A stretch of DNA of 64,000 bases from Halobaculum sp. XH14 (lineage in GTDB: Archaea > Halobacteriota > Halobacteria > Halobacteriales > Haloferacaceae). A program made the translations under genes and the position numbers. A model generated the notes under the pieces. It had not been told where the DNA came from, made no database searches, and saw nothing but the letters and a program-made list of their open reading frames with translations. The stretch is taken from assembly GCF_032116555.1 (NCBI RefSeq), contig NZ_CP134949.1, forward strand, positions 2,294,001 through 2,358,000, written 5' to 3'. This document shows, piece after piece, positions 5,085 to 45,851 of the stretch (the stretch's first letter is position 1; the number at the start of each line of letters is the position of its first letter).

Positions 5085-6224
5085 TCACTCCTCGCGGTCG
5101 AACGCCCCGTGACCGTGTCGCTGGATGGCGTCCAGGAGTTCGTCCCGCTGACGGCGAAGCTCGGGCGTCGGTCGCTCGGACACGTGCTCGAACATCGACG
5201 CCGGATCGGGATCGACCGCCTCCGCGGCCTCGATCACCGCGGCCACTTGCTCGTCCGCATCCGATTCGATCGCGTCGATCCGCTCGTCGTCGAGCAGCCC
5301 GCGGCCCCGGAGGAACGACTCGAACCGGGGGAGCGGGTCCCAGCGCTGCCAGCGCTCCAGTTCCGCCTCGTCGCGGTACACCGTCGGATCGTCGGCGGTC
5401 GTGTGCGCGCCGAAGCGGTACGCCACCGTCTCGACGAGCGTCGGTCGGTGGTCGCCGTCGGGGGAGCCGCGTGCCTTTCCGGCCGCCCGCCGGATCACCT
5501 CGTACACCGCCAGCGGGTCCATCCCGTCGACGCGGACGCCCTCGAACCCGTACGCCTCGGCCTTTCCAGCGTACGACGCCGCGGCGGTCTGCTGGTCGGA
5601 CGGCGTCGAGATCGCCCACCCGTTGTTGGTGCAGACGAAGACGGTCGGCGTGTCGAACACGCCGGCGAAGTTGAGCGCCTCGTGGAAGTCGCCCTCGGAG
5701 GTCGAGCCGTCGCCGAAGAACGCCGTGACCACCCGGCCCTCGTCCCGGTAGTCGAGCGCCATCCCCGCGCCGACGGCGTGGGGGAGGTGCGAGCCGATGC
5801 CGATGGTCAGCGGGAAGACGTCGATGTCGGCCAGCGCGGCGGTCCCGGACTCGTGGCCCATCCAGAACGCGAGGTAGCCGGGCGGGAACCCGCGCGCGAC
5901 GACCGTGCCGTGCTCCCGGTACTGATAGAACACCGGGTCGTCCGCACGCAGCGCGTGGGTGGCGGCGACGGAGATCGCCTCCTGGCCCGCGATCGCGGCG
6001 TAGGTTCCGACGCGCCCCTGCCGCTGGAGGCTCACCGCGCGCTCGTCGAACCGGCGGGTCGTCCACATGTCGCGGTAGAGGTCGACGAGCACGTCGTCGG
6101 CGACCTCGGGGACTGGACGGACCGGGTCGCCGTCGGCGTCGAGCACCCGGTAGACGTCGCCCATCGGGTCGTCCACCTCGGCGTCCGCTTCGCCCGGCGC
6201 GTCCGCCCCGTCTCGACGTGTCAT
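5085..6224 (-). CDS. Thiamine-diphosphate-dependent 2-oxoacid dehydrogenase E1 component, alpha subunit
   Basis: A 379-residue protein starting at the ATG at 6222-6224; an in-frame GTG at 6239 is possible but less likely. The E1-alpha landmarks are present: [14 protein letters not shown] near the active-site entrance, and the ThDP-binding motif [18 protein letters not shown] followed by NNGWAIS. The family decarboxylates pyruvate or branched-chain 2-oxoacids with an E1-beta, E2 and E3. No E1-beta or E2 gene is adjacent, which is unusual because E1-alpha and E1-beta normally form an operon. The next gene downstream is the lysine-less threonine synthase-like gene. Haloarchaea keep several such complexes whose substrates are only partly known. 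Confidence 0.9.
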
Positions 6225-6312
6225 GTGGGCACGTGTCACTCGGGGTGCCTATCGGTTCCGGTCGAACAGACGAGGGGAACTCACTCGAAGGAACCTCGAT
6301 CGGCCGTCCCGC

Positions 6313-7020
6313 TCAGAGCATCCGGCGGAACTCCCCGAGCGGGGGGAACTCCAGCGTCTCGCGCGCGTCGGGGTCGCGGACGGCCGGCCGGAGCGCGTTC
6401 GCGTCGGTCACGAGCGGCGAGTCGAAATCGCGCGTCCCCATCCCGTTCACCGCCACGCCGGCCGCGAGTCGCGTGAACGCGGGGAGCATCAGCACGTCCG
6501 CGTCCCGGAACTGGCCGTCACCGTAGAGGAAGCACGGGCGGCGGGCTCCCTCGACGTCGATGGTCGGGTGGTCGTGGCCGACGACGTAGCAGTCGGCGTC
6601 CTCGTCCCGAGGCGGGGTCTCGTGGCCGTGGCGGACGACGACCCGCTCCCCGTCGGCGTCCAGCGCGTAGGCGTCGTAGACCGTCCCGTCCCAGACCTCG
6701 TGGAGCACCGTGTCGTGGTTGCCGGCGACGACGACCGGCGACGCGCCAGCATCGCGGCAGGCGTCGACGAGGCCGCCGAGCGACCGGTCCGTGGCGAGGG
6801 AGGCGCGGCCGAACTCGTGGAGGACGTCGCCCGCGAACACGACCTCGGCGGGGGCACAGTCGGCGAGAAGCGTCTCGAGTCGTCCCCTCAGGTCGGTGCC
6901 CTCGCCGAGCGGGTACTCGACGTCCGACGCCTCGGCGCGGCCGACGTGAAGGTCCGCACAGATGAGCGCGTCGGCCCCCGGGAGGAACACGGCGCGGTCG
7001 CGAAAGCGAAACGAAGCCAC
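6313..7020 (-). CDS. Calcineurin-like metallophosphoesterase
   Basis: A 235-residue cytosolic protein with the five metallophosphoesterase blocks: CADLHVG (residues ~20-26), VFAGDVLHEFG (~60-70), VAGNHD (~97-102), a GHE segment (VRHGHE) and VVGHDHPTIDVEG. The length and order match the archaeal single-domain group annotated as phosphoesterase or SbcD-like exonuclease-related proteins. The natural substrate, whether phosphodiester, nucleotide or other, cannot be read from sequence. The start is GTG at 7018-7020. The gene is divergent from the 220-residue gene at 7166. Confidence 0.87.
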   Translation of the reverse strand: MASFRFRDRAVFLPGADALICADLHVGRAEASDVEYPLGEGTDLRGRLETLLADCAPAEVVFAGDVLHEFGRASLATDRSLGGLVDACRDAGASPVVVAGNHDTVLHEVWDGTVYDAYALDADGERVVVRHGHETPPRDEDADCYVVGHDHPTIDVEGARRPCFLYGDGQFRDADVLMLPAFTRLAAGVAVNGMGTRDFDSPLVTDANALRPAVRDPDARETLEFPPLGEFRRML

Positions 7021-7165
7021 GAGTCGTGGGTCGCGCCCGAGCGGCTAAGGGGTGTCGCCCGGCAGGGTGTGGCGGCCAACCGGCGGAGCGCCCGCTTCAG
7101 GAACGACCGGCCGACCACGAGGCGGAAGCGACACGCGCTTGTGTCCCGGGTGACTCCCCGGTACC

Positions 7166-7828
7166 ATGGAGGCGACCACCGACGGACGGTTCCGGGTGCT
7201 CTCCCACGCGGACGACGAGTACGTGCTCGTCGATCTCACGCCGGTCGAGGACCCGGCCGACGCGTACGAACCGGTCCGGGTCGCCGCCGAGGGGTACGGC
7301 GACGATCTCGCCGAATCGGTGGCGGAACTCGAACCTGGGGTGGTCGTCGACGCGGAGCTGATCTGGACCGACGGCGAGGCGCGGTTCCGCTCGGTCTCGG
7401 TCCGCCGCCGGGGCCGGGTCGCGTTCGCCGACGACGTCGAGAACCTCTTCGAGGCGGCCCGCGAGACGTGGCGGGACGCGCGGGCCGCCGGCGACGCGAT
7501 GGCCTCGCGGGTCACCCGCGACACCGACGGCGAGCCGAACGGCGCGCTGTACGTCTTCGCCGACGCCGGCGCCCGCGACCTGCTCGCCGAGTTCCGGAGC
7601 GGGACGACGCCGCTCGAACCGCTGATCGAGCGGGTGAACGCGGAGGAGATGGACGGTGAGGCCACGGACGCGGACCCGACGACCGATGACGGGAGTTCGG
7701 ACCCGAGCGAGCCGCCCGAGCGCGAGGCGTTCGTCCTCCGCCCCCGGGACGGCGAGTTCGTCGTCGTCTACGTCGCCTTCGAACCGGGCGGGCTGCTGGC
7801 GCGGACCGTGCGGGACACGTACTTTTGA
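7166..7828 (+). CDS. Haloarchaeal conserved protein (possibly DUF6663)
   Basis: A 220-residue acidic protein starting at the ATG at 7166. It has two recognisable parts: residues ~1-75 form a beta-rich segment (GRFRVLSHADDEYVLVDLT ... ELIWTDGEARFRSVSVRR) that looks like an OB or TRAM-like barrel, and residues ~85-165 are helical (ENLFEAARETWRDARAAGDAM ... LLAEFRSGTTPLEPLIERVN), before an acidic linker and a C-terminal beta hairpin (VVVYVAFEPGGLLARTVRDTYF). I believe this is the haloarchaeal family DUF6663 but could not check. No function is known. No membrane segment or catalytic motif is visible. Confidence 0.72.
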   Translation: MEATTDGRFRVLSHADDEYVLVDLTPVEDPADAYEPVRVAAEGYGDDLAESVAELEPGVVVDAELIWTDGEARFRSVSVRRRGRVAFADDVENLFEAARETWRDARAAGDAMASRVTRDTDGEPNGALYVFADAGARDLLAEFRSGTTPLEPLIERVNAEEMDGEATDADPTTDDGSSDPSEPPEREAFVLRPRDGEFVVVYVAFEPGGLLARTVRDTYF

Positions 7829-41371: not shown

Positions 41372-42220
41372 CTACCGGTCGGGGCTCCAGGCCCGTCCGA
41401 GCCGCGTGGCGCGGACCCGGTCGGCGACCTCTCCCGGCAGGGAACTGCGCGCGACGGCCACGCAGAAGGCCGCCAGCAGCGCCCCTGCGACGACGTCGGT
41501 CGCCCAGTGGATGCCGAGATACATCGTCGCCACGACGATGCTTCCCGCGAGGACGGGCGCGAGCACCGCCCAGACCGGATACACTCGCCGCGTCTGGAAC
41601 GCGAACGCGGCCGCGGTGAGCGCCAGCGACGTGTGCAGCGACGGGAACACGTTCGTGTTCGTGTTCACTTCGCTCACGAGCGCCTGGTACTGCGGGTACG
41701 TCGAGTACAGCAGCGGCTCCACCTGGTCGACGAGCAGGTTGCGCGGGCCGTAGGCGACGAAGACGGTGTAACAGGCCAGCCCGATAACGTAGTTCAGGCC
41801 GTACGCGACCGCCAGCTCGCGCAGCTGGTTCGGGTCCGGGTGGAGCAGGTAGGCGAGAAGCGGGAACACCAGCACGAACACGTAGCCGTACACGTAGACG
41901 AACGAGAAGTACGCCGTCCCGAGCGGGGTGGCGAACGACTGGAGCCACGGGACGAACCCGCCCTCCAGCGCATAGATGGAGCCGGTGATGTTCACGCCGA
42001 CCACCCACGACAGCGCGGGCACCTGATCGCGCAGCAGTCCGTTCACCAGCAGCACGACGCCGAGCGCGACGAACGCCGGCCCGACCTCCCGCAACCGACG
42101 GCGACCGTCGCGTCGGAGGGGGCCGAGGCCCGTCCCGCGGGCGAGCAGGAAGACCCCGGCGAGGACGAGCGCGCTCACGACGGCGACCACGTGGACGAGG
42201 ACCGAGACGAGGACGCTCAT
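41372..42220 (-). CDS. PAP2-family phosphatase
   Basis: A 282-residue integral membrane protein with six or seven helices. The PAP2 active-site segments are visible: a Lys/Arg-rich approach then PSLHTSLALTAAAFAFQTRRV (phosphatase motif 2, with Ser and His) and YLGIHWATDVVAGALLA (motif 3, with His and Asp), about residues 190-250. Such enzymes dephosphorylate isoprenyl or phosphatidyl phosphates at the membrane; in archaea, isoprenoid phosphate recycling is likely. Its ATG overlaps the stop of the upstream solute-binding-protein gene by one base, so they are coupled, although a functional link is unclear. Confidence 0.88.
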   Translation of the reverse strand: MSVLVSVLVHVVAVVSALVLAGVFLLARGTGLGPLRRDGRRRLREVGPAFVALGVVLLVNGLLRDQVPALSWVVGVNITGSIYALEGGFVPWLQSFATPLGTAYFSFVYVYGYVFVLVFPLLAYLLHPDPNQLRELAVAYGLNYVIGLACYTVFVAYGPRNLLVDQVEPLLYSTYPQYQALVSEVNTNTNVFPSLHTSLALTAAAFAFQTRRVYPVWAVLAPVLAGSIVVATMYLGIHWATDVVAGALLAAFCVAVARSSLPGEVADRVRATRLGRAWSPDR

Positions 42221-44238
42221 CAGCTCCTGAGTCGACCCTCCTCGTCGTAGCGGTAGCCCGCCTCACGAAACGCCCGTCGTGCGGCCGTCTCGTCCAGTTG
42301 GCCGTCCTCCCCGTGGAACCCCGCCTTGCGGGTCTCCGCGTCCCAGCGGAGGTCGGGCGCCTCCCACTCGGTCCCGGCCAGCGGCGTCGCCGCCGGACGC
42401 GCGTACCCGCCGAGCTGTTCGGCCGCAACCGCGCCAGCGTCGAGCAGCCCCGCGACCGCCTGCCTGAAGTGCGGGTTCGTGAGCGGCGAGCGCCGCATGT
42501 TGAACCCCAGGTGGTAGAACGACCACGAGCGGGCCGAGACCAGCCTGAGCGCGTTCGAGCGCCCGATCCGTGGCACCGTCGCGGGATCGAGCTGTGAGAC
42601 GGTCGCGTCGACGTCGCCCGCGGCCGCGAGTTCGACCGCGGTGGAGTCGGAGGGCGCTCGCTGCACGAGCAGTTCGTCGAACGCCGGCTTCCCGTGGAAC
42701 CGCTCCGGAACGTCCGCGGGCGGCCGTTCCCTGGCCAGGAAGTGGTCGGAGAACCGCGTGAACAGCGCCGACTCGCCGCCGCTCGCGCGCTCGAACGAGA
42801 GCGGCCCGCTGCCGACCGGTTCGGGGTTCATCCAGACGAGCGCCTCGGTGACGCCGTCGGTGCCGAAGCCGGGCACGTCGACCTCCCCGGTCCGCTCGGT
42901 CCAGATGTGCTGGGGGAGCAGCGGGACCGTGAGCGCCCGCGCCGCCACGGTTCGGCTGGGGACGGTGAACCGGAGTTCGGCCGTCAGCGGACCCGTCGCG
43001 GTAACCGAGTCGACGAGCGAGGACCGGCCGCGGAACCGCGGCGCGGGAACCGGCGAGTCCAGCCCGCCCATCGAGGTGTCCGCGAGGAACGCGTACGTGA
43101 ACGCCACGTCGTCGGCGGTGATCGGTTCGCCGTCGTGCCAGGTCAGCCCCTCGCGGAGCCGAACCGTCGCCACCGTCGGGTCGATCTCGTCGGCGTCGGT
43201 CGTCCCCTCCCCGACGGGCGCTTCCGTCCTCGTGTCCGTGCCGGCAGCGGCCGCCGTCCCCGTCTCGGCCTCGTCGCCTCGATCCGTGCCGGCCCCGCCG
43301 GCCCGATCCGTGTCGTCGCTCACGCCGCCATCCCAGGTCCACTCGGACGCGAGCCACGGGCGTACGGCGCCGGCGTACTGGCGGGCGAGCGGGTCGTACA
43401 GCAGGCCGGTGAACGTGCCGGTGTCGCGGAACTCGGCGGCGACCGGGTTGCGGTTCTCCGTGATCCGACCGTCCGTCGTCGCCAGTCCGAGCCTCGTCGG
43501 CTCCGCTCCCGACCCGTCGGGAGTCGTGACCGGCGTCGCGGTCCCGCCCTGACCGCCCGGCCCGGCACCGTCGTCCCCGGCGGGGTCGGTCCCGTCGGTC
43601 GCCGTCCGGTCGAGCCCCAGCAGCCCCAGCGGCGTGTCGAAGCCGTCGGTCGCGCCGAGCCACCCCTCGTACTCGCCGAGGCGAACCGCCGAGAGTTCGT
43701 CGGGGAACGCGAGCGTCGAGAACGGGAGGATCTCGGCGATCGTGCGCTGGAGCTCCATCACCGCGTCGCGCCGTCGCTGGCCGGACGTCATCCGCTGTCT
43801 GTCGAGCAGTTCATCGAGCGCGAGGTCGGTACAGCCGAAGGGGTTTTGCCACCCCGGCTCGCTCGTGAACTTCGAGTGGATCATCGGGTAGAGCTCGTCG
43901 GGGTCGATGAGCGTCGAGGCGGGATAGCGCCCGACGTAGAGGTCGAACTCGTTGTTGATGAGCACCTGCCGGTGGAGTTCCTCGACGGCGACCGGCGTCA
44001 CGCGAGCGCCGACGCCGACGGTCCGGAGGTTCTCGGCGAGCGTCCGGGCGATCTGGATCCCGACCGGATCGGCGTCCGCGGGCGCTGCTTTGATGTCGAC
44101 CGCGACCCGGTCGCTAGAATCCCGGCCGGCGACGCTGCGGATCCGGTCGAGACAGCCGCCCGTCGCCGCGGTTCCGGCGGTCGCCGCGAGCGCGGCGAGC
44201 GTCCGACGGCGCGTCGCGACTGGGAGGGCAGGTGTCAT
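42220..44238 (-). CDS. Family-5 solute-binding lipoprotein, apparently circularly permuted
   Basis: A 672-residue exported protein starting at the ATG at 44236-44238, with an RR-containing signal and lipobox-like Cys (ATGGC, Cys29). The family-5 (dipeptide/oligopeptide) landmarks are all present but in the wrong order. Residues ~45-195 (GIQIARTLAENLRTVGVGAR ... NNEFDLYVGRYP) correspond to the part that is normally C-terminal. After a Gly/Asp/Thr-rich linker (~212-245) come the normally N-terminal elements: TGLLYDPLARQY...PWLASEW (~278-300), LREGLTWHDGEPITADDVAF (~370) and, near the end, FRQAVAGLLD and REAGYRYDEEG. No permease genes adjoin. Solute unknown. Confidence 0.82.
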   Translation of the reverse strand: MTPALPVATRRRTLAALAATAGTAATGGCLDRIRSVAGRDSSDRVAVDIKAAPADADPVGIQIARTLAENLRTVGVGARVTPVAVEELHRQVLINNEFDLYVGRYPASTLIDPDELYPMIHSKFTSEPGWQNPFGCTDLALDELLDRQRMTSGQRRRDAVMELQRTIAEILPFSTLAFPDELSAVRLGEYEGWLGATDGFDTPLGLLGLDRTATDGTDPAGDDGAGPGGQGGTATPVTTPDGSGAEPTRLGLATTDGRITENRNPVAAEFRDTGTFTGLLYDPLARQYAGAVRPWLASEWTWDGGVSDDTDRAGGAGTDRGDEAETGTAAAAGTDTRTEAPVGEGTTDADEIDPTVATVRLREGLTWHDGEPITADDVAFTYAFLADTSMGGLDSPVPAPRFRGRSSLVDSVTATGPLTAELRFTVPSRTVAARALTVPLLPQHIWTERTGEVDVPGFGTDGVTEALVWMNPEPVGSGPLSFERASGGESALFTRFSDHFLARERPPADVPERFHGKPAFDELLVQRAPSDSTAVELAAAGDVDATVSQLDPATVPRIGRSNALRLVSARSWSFYHLGFNMRRSPLTNPHFRQAVAGLLDAGAVAAEQLGGYARPAATPLAGTEWEAPDLRWDAETRKAGFHGEDGQLDETAARRAFREAGYRYDEEGRLRS

Positions 44239-44456: not shown

Positions 44457-45851
44457 GTGAACAGCGGGACCCCGCGGCGGGTGACACTGGCGGCGCTCAC
44501 CGTGCTGGCCGCGGCCGTGCTCGTCGGCGGCTACGCGACGGCCCAGTTGACCGGCGAGGGCGTCAGGGGCGACCCCGCCGTCGAGCGGGCGTTCCGCTCG
44601 GGCGACGCCGGCCAGGTGGTCGGGGAGCGGGACGCGATCACCGTCGTCGCCACGGACTCGACGGCGTTCGTGAGCGACGAGGGGTCGGGGCCCAGGCGAC
44701 TCGCGGAACTCGTCGCGTTCGCCCCCGACGGCAGCGTCTACTACTACGACGACGACCACACGCGCTACTGGGACGTCGACCCGTTCGAGGGGACGAACGC
44801 CACCGTCGAGTACGTGTACGCCGACCACCTCGACGCCGACGAGTGTGGCGCGGAGACGGTGTGTACCCGGAACGGCGTGGAGCGGGTGAACCTCACCACC
44901 GGCGAGGTGACCGACGTGTACAGCCGCATCACGCCGGGCAAGCATTCGACGCGCTGGCACGACGTCGACCGCGTCGACGACGAGCGCCTGCTGGTCGCCG
45001 ACATCTTCCGCGACCGCGTCTACGTCGTCAACACGACGACGGGGCTCGTCGAGTGGGAGTGGGACGCACAGAGCGAGTTCGACCCCGAGAGCGGCGGCCC
45101 GTACCCCGACGACTGGACCCACCTCAACGACGTCGAACTCGTCGAGATCGACGGCAGGGAGGCGGCCATGGTGAGCCTGCGGAACCACGACCAGGTCGTC
45201 TTCGTCGGCTTCGAGCGCGGCCTGCTGGACGAGTGGACGCTCGGGAGCGACGACGACCACGACGTCCTGTACGAGCAGCACAACCCCGACTTCATCCCCG
45301 CCGAGCGGGGCGGCCCCGCGGTCCTGGTCGCCGACTCCGAGCACGGGCGGGTCGTCGAGTACCAGCGCGTCGACGGCGAGTGGGAGCGGTCGTGGGTGTG
45401 GGCCGACCAGCGACTCACGTGGCCCCGCGACGCCGACAGGCTGCCGAACGGCCACACGCTCGTCACCGACTCGAACGGCGACCGCGTCCTCGAGGTGGAC
45501 CGGTCGGGCGAGGTCGTCTGGAGCGCGGACGTCGGCTTCCCGTACGAGTCCGAACGGCTCGGGACGGGCGACGAGAGCGCGGGCGGGGAAAGCGCCGCGT
45601 CGCTGGGGCTCGCTTCCCAGGAACCGCCCGCCGCACGCGGCGAGGGCGACGCCGTCTCCCGGGTCGCTGCGGCGGCACCACCCTCACTCGTGAACGCCGT
45701 CGCGTACGTGCTGCCGCCGTGGATGGGGGTTCCCAAGGTGCTCGCCGCCCTCGTTCTGCTCGTCGTCGCCCCCTGGTGGCTGCTCGTGGAATACCGCCGG
45801 AGTGCGTACGAACTGTCCGTCCGCTCGCCGCTCACGGTGCGGCGGCGATGA
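44457..45851 (+). CDS. Arylsulfotransferase-like (ASST) membrane-anchored protein
   Basis: A 464-residue protein from the GTG at 44457. A hydrophobic N-terminal helix (~9-28) and a C-terminal helix (~427-450) anchor an extracellular domain built of repeated beta-propeller blades: HSTRWHDVDRVDDERLLVAD, DWTHLNDVELVEIDGREAAM, LYEQHNPDFIP and SWVWADQRLTWPRDADRLPN (in parts). The His residues in HSTRWHDV and HLNDVE match the catalytic-type histidines of arylsulfotransferases. Enzymatic activity is uncertain as many haloarchaeal members are only called ASST-family. It overlaps the next gene by 4 bp (ATGA). Confidence 0.82.
   Translation: MNSGTPRRVTLAALTVLAAAVLVGGYATAQLTGEGVRGDPAVERAFRSGDAGQVVGERDAITVVATDSTAFVSDEGSGPRRLAELVAFAPDGSVYYYDDDHTRYWDVDPFEGTNATVEYVYADHLDADECGAETVCTRNGVERVNLTTGEVTDVYSRITPGKHSTRWHDVDRVDDERLLVADIFRDRVYVVNTTTGLVEWEWDAQSEFDPESGGPYPDDWTHLNDVELVEIDGREAAMVSLRNHDQVVFVGFERGLLDEWTLGSDDDHDVLYEQHNPDFIPAERGGPAVLVADSEHGRVVEYQRVDGEWERSWVWADQRLTWPRDADRLPNGHTLVTDSNGDRVLEVDRSGEVVWSADVGFPYESERLGTGDESAGGESAASLGLASQEPPAARGEGDAVSRVAAAAPPSLVNAVAYVLPPWMGVPKVLAALVLLVVAPWWLLVEYRRSAYELSVRSPLTVRRR

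Follow-up and report, generated by a model that had tools for sequence, protein, structure and literature searches.

Does the family-5 solute-binding protein encoded at one locus of the haloarchaeon Halobaculum sp. XH14 carry its two parts in swapped order and, if so, how widespread is such a chain, how did it arise, and what does it serve? In the window (the whole stretch of 64,000 nucleotides that was analysed), an open reading frame (ORF) of 672 amino acids (aa) lies on the minus strand at 42220-44238, exactly where the initial annotation had set the gene. That annotation had proposed a circular permutation in which the C-terminal part stands at the N-terminus and the usual N-terminal elements follow a low-complexity linker, and it had held that natural permutation would be unusual in this family.

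Permuted solute-binding proteins as such are already known. The closest precedent is TpMglB-2 (Tp0684) of Treponema pallidum, a naturally permuted sugar-binding protein for which the name “Cluster Bc / Type Ic” was coined and for which ligand binding and conformational change have been shown, while a link between its permutation and membrane tethering was put forward as a proposal (PMC4990184, of which only parts were available to us). Like the window protein, it is lipid-anchored, but its class is the smaller, sugar-binding Cluster B/Type I, which has a different topology, and its chain is broken elsewhere. The available parts of that paper describe no permuted Cluster C protein, and no report of a naturally permuted family-5 protein was found in the literature searched, which did not cover most subscription journals. 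The window protein, which by both profile and structural comparisons qualifies as a naturally permuted solute-binding protein, is a permuted variant of family 5. The gene, its parts, and the gene directly downstream are as follows:

42220..44238, minus strand: coding sequence of the circularly permuted family-5 solute-binding lipoprotein, 672 aa (ORF; Pfam SBP_bac_5, E 9.8e-40)
44152..44238, minus strand: signal peptide, residues 1-29, with a twin-arginine-type motif and a lipobox ending at Cys29 (seen in the sequence)
44122..44151, minus strand: short lipid tether, residues 30-39 (Cys29-Pro53 distance constant in 63/63 aligned rows)
43597..44121, minus strand: moved segment, i.e., the native C-terminal third, residues 40-214 (profile positions 408-551; AppA 355-520 when folded alone, Z 8.5)
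43501..43596, minus strand: low-complexity linker between the old C- and N-termini, residues 215-246 (pLDDT under 50 at 218-223 and 227-239)
42223..43500, minus strand: native N-terminal two thirds, ending at the new C-terminus, residues 247-672 (residues 243-672 correspond to AppA 17-355, Z 21.9)
43189..43311, minus strand: low-complexity insert within the second part, residues 310-350, missing from most orthologues (orthologue alignment; fold model)
41372..42220, minus strand: PAP2_3 membrane protein, 282 aa, whose start codon shares one base with the stop codon of the binding-protein gene (PF14378, E 1.5e-18)

Order of the segments and predicted fold

The window protein matches the SBP_bac_5 family profile (PF00496) with 137.2 bits against a cut-off of 32.4 (E 9.8e-40). 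Residues 292-667, the best-matching stretch, account for only positions 2-283 of the 368 in the profile, and the remaining part of the family lies ahead of residue 292. The element FDLYVGRYP occupies residues 98-106, and REAGYRYDEEGRLRS forms the extreme C-terminus. A reference profile of 565 positions, built from seven family-5 proteins of this genome that have the normal order, was matched first at positions 408-551 (residues ~47-196, i-E 1.1e-10) and then at positions 50-135 (i-E 0.0047) and 132-404 (i-E 1.4e-32); the weakness of the N-terminal match at positions 50-135 counts against the swapped order. In a phmmer comparison with AppA of Bacillus subtilis, residues 351-629 paired with AppA 75-321 and residues 59-184 with AppA 372-494, the latter pairing not being significant alone. 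Rotating the mature window protein raised its best single-domain score from 103.5 to 139.5 bits, with one match across positions 132-551. Such a rise was seen in three of the five permuted proteins tried (the window protein and its orthologues L069 and L050), and rotation gave no gain for the same-genome paralogues L014 and L015.

The main count of segment order comprised 174 distinct ORFs, of which 115 were permuted, 38 normal (one in two pieces), and 21 not scorable by the rule; the last group includes window-type proteins whose profile match is broken at inserts or lacks the first part. A profile of the C-terminal segment alone matched the second half of all 37 scored normal-order ORFs and the first half of 112 of the 115 permuted ones. 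Hits were located relative to the frame from stop to stop, which in some ORFs begins with a long upstream extension; we take these extensions to explain the other three.

The AlphaFold model of the full protein, built with 63 sequences, describes one protein (pLDDT 84.1, pTM 0.82), with pLDDT under 50 at residues 1-12 and 20-36 (signal peptide and beyond), in the junction linker, and in the insert at 310-350. In structural comparison of this model, residues 243-672 matched residues 17-355 of AppA (1xoc; Z 21.9, rmsd 3.4, 331 aligned), and residues 40-214, when folded alone (pLDDT 73.5), matched AppA 355-520 (Z 8.5, rmsd 6.0, 161 aligned), so that the two matches meet at AppA 355 and together cover AppA 17-520. 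The fragment match, resting on a fair predicted model, is modest alone; its value is that it picks out the complementary range of AppA, and all 50 rows listed for the fragment were of family-5 type by title and matched from residue 308 onward. No solved chain matched in one stretch across the permuted order among the best 60 of 115 and the best 60 of 108 matches. All matches listed in both structural comparisons were of family-5 type by title; Cluster B chains were missing from them, an absence that does not exclude that fold, and TpMglB-2 itself was not in the comparison. Both parts of the window protein also match LpqW (2grv), likewise a lipoprotein with a family-5-like fold, in which the parts stand in normal order: LpqW 25-384 corresponds to the second part of the window protein and LpqW 384-586 to the first.

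The proposed displacement of the C-terminal part to the N-terminus is thus borne out by profile order, by a model that forms one protein, and by two structural comparisons that align the halves to a normal family-5 protein, AppA, in swapped order. Both halves of solute-binding proteins have an alpha/beta architecture, and partial matches would therefore also be possible if two separate domains, or a gene fusion such as a C-terminal-like domain placed before a truncated protein, merely looked permuted. We consider this very unlikely, as the two parts cover AppA 17-520 and meet at 355, the C-segment profile never matched in the first half of a normal ORF (0/37), and recent normal and permuted pairs, described below, match in their DNA in swapped order. 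A fusion of unrelated domains is ruled out by the coverage of AppA in both structural comparisons together with the positions of the C-segment profile.

In our judgement, the window protein is almost certainly a family-5 (Cluster C) solute-binding protein that was circularly permuted in nature and has kept its predicted bilobed fold. This assessment covers the permutation and the retained fold only, and the bilobed Cluster C fold is met by prediction only. With the canonical members of family 5/Cluster C (AppA 1xoc, DppA 1dpp; PF00496), the window protein shares the family profile, the predicted bilobed fold, and an export signal, whereas its segment order, by profiles and structural comparisons alike, is not the canonical one: the C-terminal third (residues ~40-214, AppA 355-520) comes first, the N-terminal two thirds (residues 243-672, AppA 17-355) come second, and the break falls at AppA ~355. 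On this model, the chain would run from the signal peptide and lipid anchor through the native C-terminal third and a flexible linker into the native N-terminal two thirds, and would end in the loop where a normal chain goes from ‘..EAGYRYDEEGRL’ to ‘..QLTLEIKT’. The low-complexity linker that had been described does join the old ends at residues ~215-246, but a second, larger stretch (~310-350) is no part of it, being an insert that lies within the second part and is missing from most orthologues. Annotation by family profile alone reports such permuted genes as ordinary binding proteins.

Distribution in haloarchaea and bacteria

The expectation that natural permutation would be unusual did not hold: it is common in Halobacteria and present in Alphaproteobacteria, and the permuted TpMglB-2 is known (PMC4990184). 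Further permuted members were found among paralogues in the same genome, haloarchaeal orthologues, another class of the phylum, and alphaproteobacterial plasmids. Within the taxonomic family of the window, 83 of 148 genomes match the window protein at E ≤ 1e-20, and all 30 loci fetched from this family (own copy included) were collinear with it in the printed rows. Of the 476 relatives that a scan of named genomes yielded, the 80 best matches were retained, every one with a haloarchaeal title; the loci of these other named assemblies were likewise collinear in the printed rows (80/80). Alignment A2 combines 62 of them with the window protein, 18 having been dropped for long start extensions or as near-copies, and R10, R11, G28, and C29 are invariant across its 63 orthologous rows. 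A sequencing or assembly artefact of this genome, for which no supporting evidence was found, has practically no chance of explaining the order, and an assembly artefact is ruled out by its recurrence in all 80 named haloarchaeal loci.

The genome itself has 11 family-5 genes, and in three of them the permutation falls at the same loop: the window gene, L014, which heads a DppBCDF operon, and L015, which adjoins an S9 peptidase and FAD oxidoreductases. The same genome also encodes a normal-order family-5 protein of 687 aa (L011:1192-3255, minus strand) that carries a sizeable additional stretch right at the loop in which the permuted chains are opened; its profile match runs over 16-382 and then, past a gap of ~115 residues, over 416-547. 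Tandem permuted binding-protein genes occur in Natronorubrum (L113:3137-4972 and 5827-7755; L128:3149-4957 and 5881-7701).

With an alignment of 15 permuted proteins (148 genomes, counted by reading), matches spanning the junction were found in at least 10 haloarchaeal genomes and, outside the class, only in G319 and G311 among the matches listed. In the class to which G319 belongs (59 genomes), junction-spanning matches among those listed occurred in G319, G344, G311, and G362. On plasmids, 34 of 968 matching records were covered to at least 80% at one place, Alphaproteobacteria included; a plasmid search with the f13 junction covered one of 1979 records to at least 80%, and that one in two pieces. 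The five alphaproteobacterial plasmid loci that were fetched (L210-L214) encode proteins permuted at the same point, all five with signal peptides that, judged by eye, lack a lipobox. Four of these records are annotated, and in all four permease and ATPase genes follow the binding-protein gene; genes for an M28 peptidase and for hydantoinase/oxoprolinase lie nearby in three of the four, which hints at the use of cyclic peptides or oxoproline.

These bacterial members bear on the idea that permutation is an adaptation to lipid anchoring, as proposed for TpMglB-2, which is also tethered (PMC4990184, as far as its available parts go). The lipobox Cys present in the window protein and its aligned orthologues (63/63 rows) would agree with such an adaptation, but we think it improbable, since the five permuted alphaproteobacterial proteins have a signal peptide without a lipobox and a lipobox also occurs in normal-order proteins from the genome of the window protein. 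The published tethering idea fits badly with the five bacterial members, which argue against it. Permuted proteins in many salt-loving archaea and some bacteria amount to a natural test of how freely evolution re-cuts a protein chain.

Origins of the permuted chain

Permuted and normal-order relatives stand close together in another class of the phylum, where permuted proteins are encoded at L179:5824-7443 (minus strand), L180:6083-7711 (plus strand), and L207:6535-8157 (plus strand) and normal-order relatives at L203-L206 and L209. They represent a second and recent permutation within a genus, the halves of the permuted proteins being ~85% identical to normal-order sister proteins. When the DNA of the permuted gene of G319 was compared with the sister genes of G295, G307, G345, and G346, two swapped blocks of 79-82% identity were the only parts of the fetched stretches to match; at the protein level the two blocks are 83-87% identical to the sister normal-order proteins. 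In another genus, G258 encodes a normal-order protein that is 80-85% identical, and this protein and the permuted ones of G319, G311, and G344 each lie beside the same permease set (DppB 85-86%, DppC 78-80%, DppD 73-75%, and OppF 72-73% identical). Because normal and permuted proteins adjoin the same permease set, the permuted form very probably cooperates with an ordinary transporter. The four same-genus sisters have no such permease set in the fetched stretch, and the comparison there is therefore one of the binding protein alone.

Engineered circular permutants are routine; natural pairs of close relatives that serve the same transporter are rare tests of the importance of chain order. Related genera offer a permuted and a normal-order version at ~80% identity, each next to the same set of permease genes, and one genus offers pairs at ~85% identity, so that effects on folding, export, and transport are directly measurable.

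In the tree, the three permuted proteins of the f13 lineage group with normal ones inside a branch with support of 100/100. A single origin of all permuted proteins was rejected by the AU test (p 1.4e-82; 39 rows, tree of proteins put into normal order), and a single origin of the haloarchaeal permuted proteins was not rejected (AU p 0.249). In a quick tree computed without bootstrap, the bacterial rows nest within the cluster of permuted haloarchaeal proteins, a placement that points, by inference from sequences alone, to transfer between domains. Branches are long and composition is uneven in the trees, and 14 of 86 rows were omitted as near-copies from the tree of 72.

Permutation probably arose through tandem duplication and fusion of two copies, after which the outer halves would have been lost; this path is inferred. 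The permuted state itself is old and inherited rather than an error. An ORF of 1026 aa in G300 (L181:2310-5390, plus strand), which contains two complete normal-order family-5 copies in tandem with one signal peptide, is a possible example of the intermediate type predicted by duplication, fusion, and truncation. In G362, a permuted family-5 protein of 588 aa (L208:4730-6496, minus strand) is encoded downstream of DppBCDF and is ~36% identical to the other permuted proteins of that class, possibly representing another independent permutation.

The PAP2 neighbour and a possible function

While permuted relatives share DppBCDF operons with canonical family 5, the window subfamily is tied by gene neighbourhood to a PAP2 gene and not to a permease. 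A PAP2 ORF lies directly downstream on the same strand in 77 of the 80 orthologous loci, the exceptions without an adjacent PAP2 gene being L057, L096, and L124. A PSLH-type motif is found in 77 and a GxHWxxD-type motif in 61 of the 78 PAP2 ORFs found. No DppB or DppC was detectable at any of the 80 loci within flanks of up to 6 kb, less at contig ends, which does not exclude an unlinked permease, and an ABC ATPase occurs somewhere in the flank of six. The spacing from the lipidated Cys to a conserved Pro (Cys29-Pro53) is 23 residues in all 63 rows, and from Cys to an aligned Gly it is 45 residues in all 63, against 39-84 in 15 other permuted proteins.

Those relatives that lie in DppBCDF operons have most likely stayed ordinary subunits of transporters, and the main rival account of the window protein extends this role to the window protein itself, as a permuted but otherwise ordinary binding protein of ABC transport whose permease is encoded elsewhere in the genome. 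This is a real possibility that we hold open: orphan binding proteins are common, and complete DppBCDF operons contain or adjoin genes for permuted relatives both in the same genome (L014) and in the other class (L179, L180, L207, and L208), as they do at four of the five fetched alphaproteobacterial plasmid loci, the fifth record being unannotated. Less easily accommodated are the lack of any detectable flanking DppB or DppC (0/80), the same PAP2 gene coupled downstream in 77 of 80 loci, and a tether of fixed length, unlike the variable one of the 15 other permuted proteins.

Only tentatively, we infer instead that the window subfamily comprises membrane-held sensors or feeders of the PAP2 enzyme, a reading for which there are no data on ligand, partner contact, or regulation. 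It is suggested by a tether that keeps the binding protein at a constant distance from the membrane and by its co-production with a membrane phosphatase, with LpqW as a parallel. Gene adjacency and a constant tether are circumstantial evidence for the PAP2 link. On its short tether of fixed length, the protein would sit beside the translationally coupled PAP2-type membrane enzyme, and binding of an extracellular ligand would control or feed this enzyme rather than an ABC permease. The mycobacterial LpqW, a lipoprotein with a family-5-like fold, steers an envelope-lipid pathway, namely lipomannan synthesis (PMC3229680, available to us only in part). For the window subfamily, this would point to a solute-binding protein put to new use next to a lipid enzyme.

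Taken as a whole, a broader account remains doubtful, in which a large permuted Cluster C group shared by haloarchaea and Alphaproteobacteria has been overlooked, at least one further origin occurred independently within a genus with the partner transporter unchanged, and the window branch left ABC transport to become a membrane-held sensor for a PAP2 lipid enzyme. The peptide-binding Asp of DppA seems absent from the window protein and is uninformative, because it is apparently absent from a normal haloarchaeal protein too. On the other side of the binding-protein gene, a divergent neighbour (44457-45851, plus strand) resembles arylsulfotransferases (PF05935, E 3.8e-08), and a similar ORF flanks 19 of the 80 orthologous loci.
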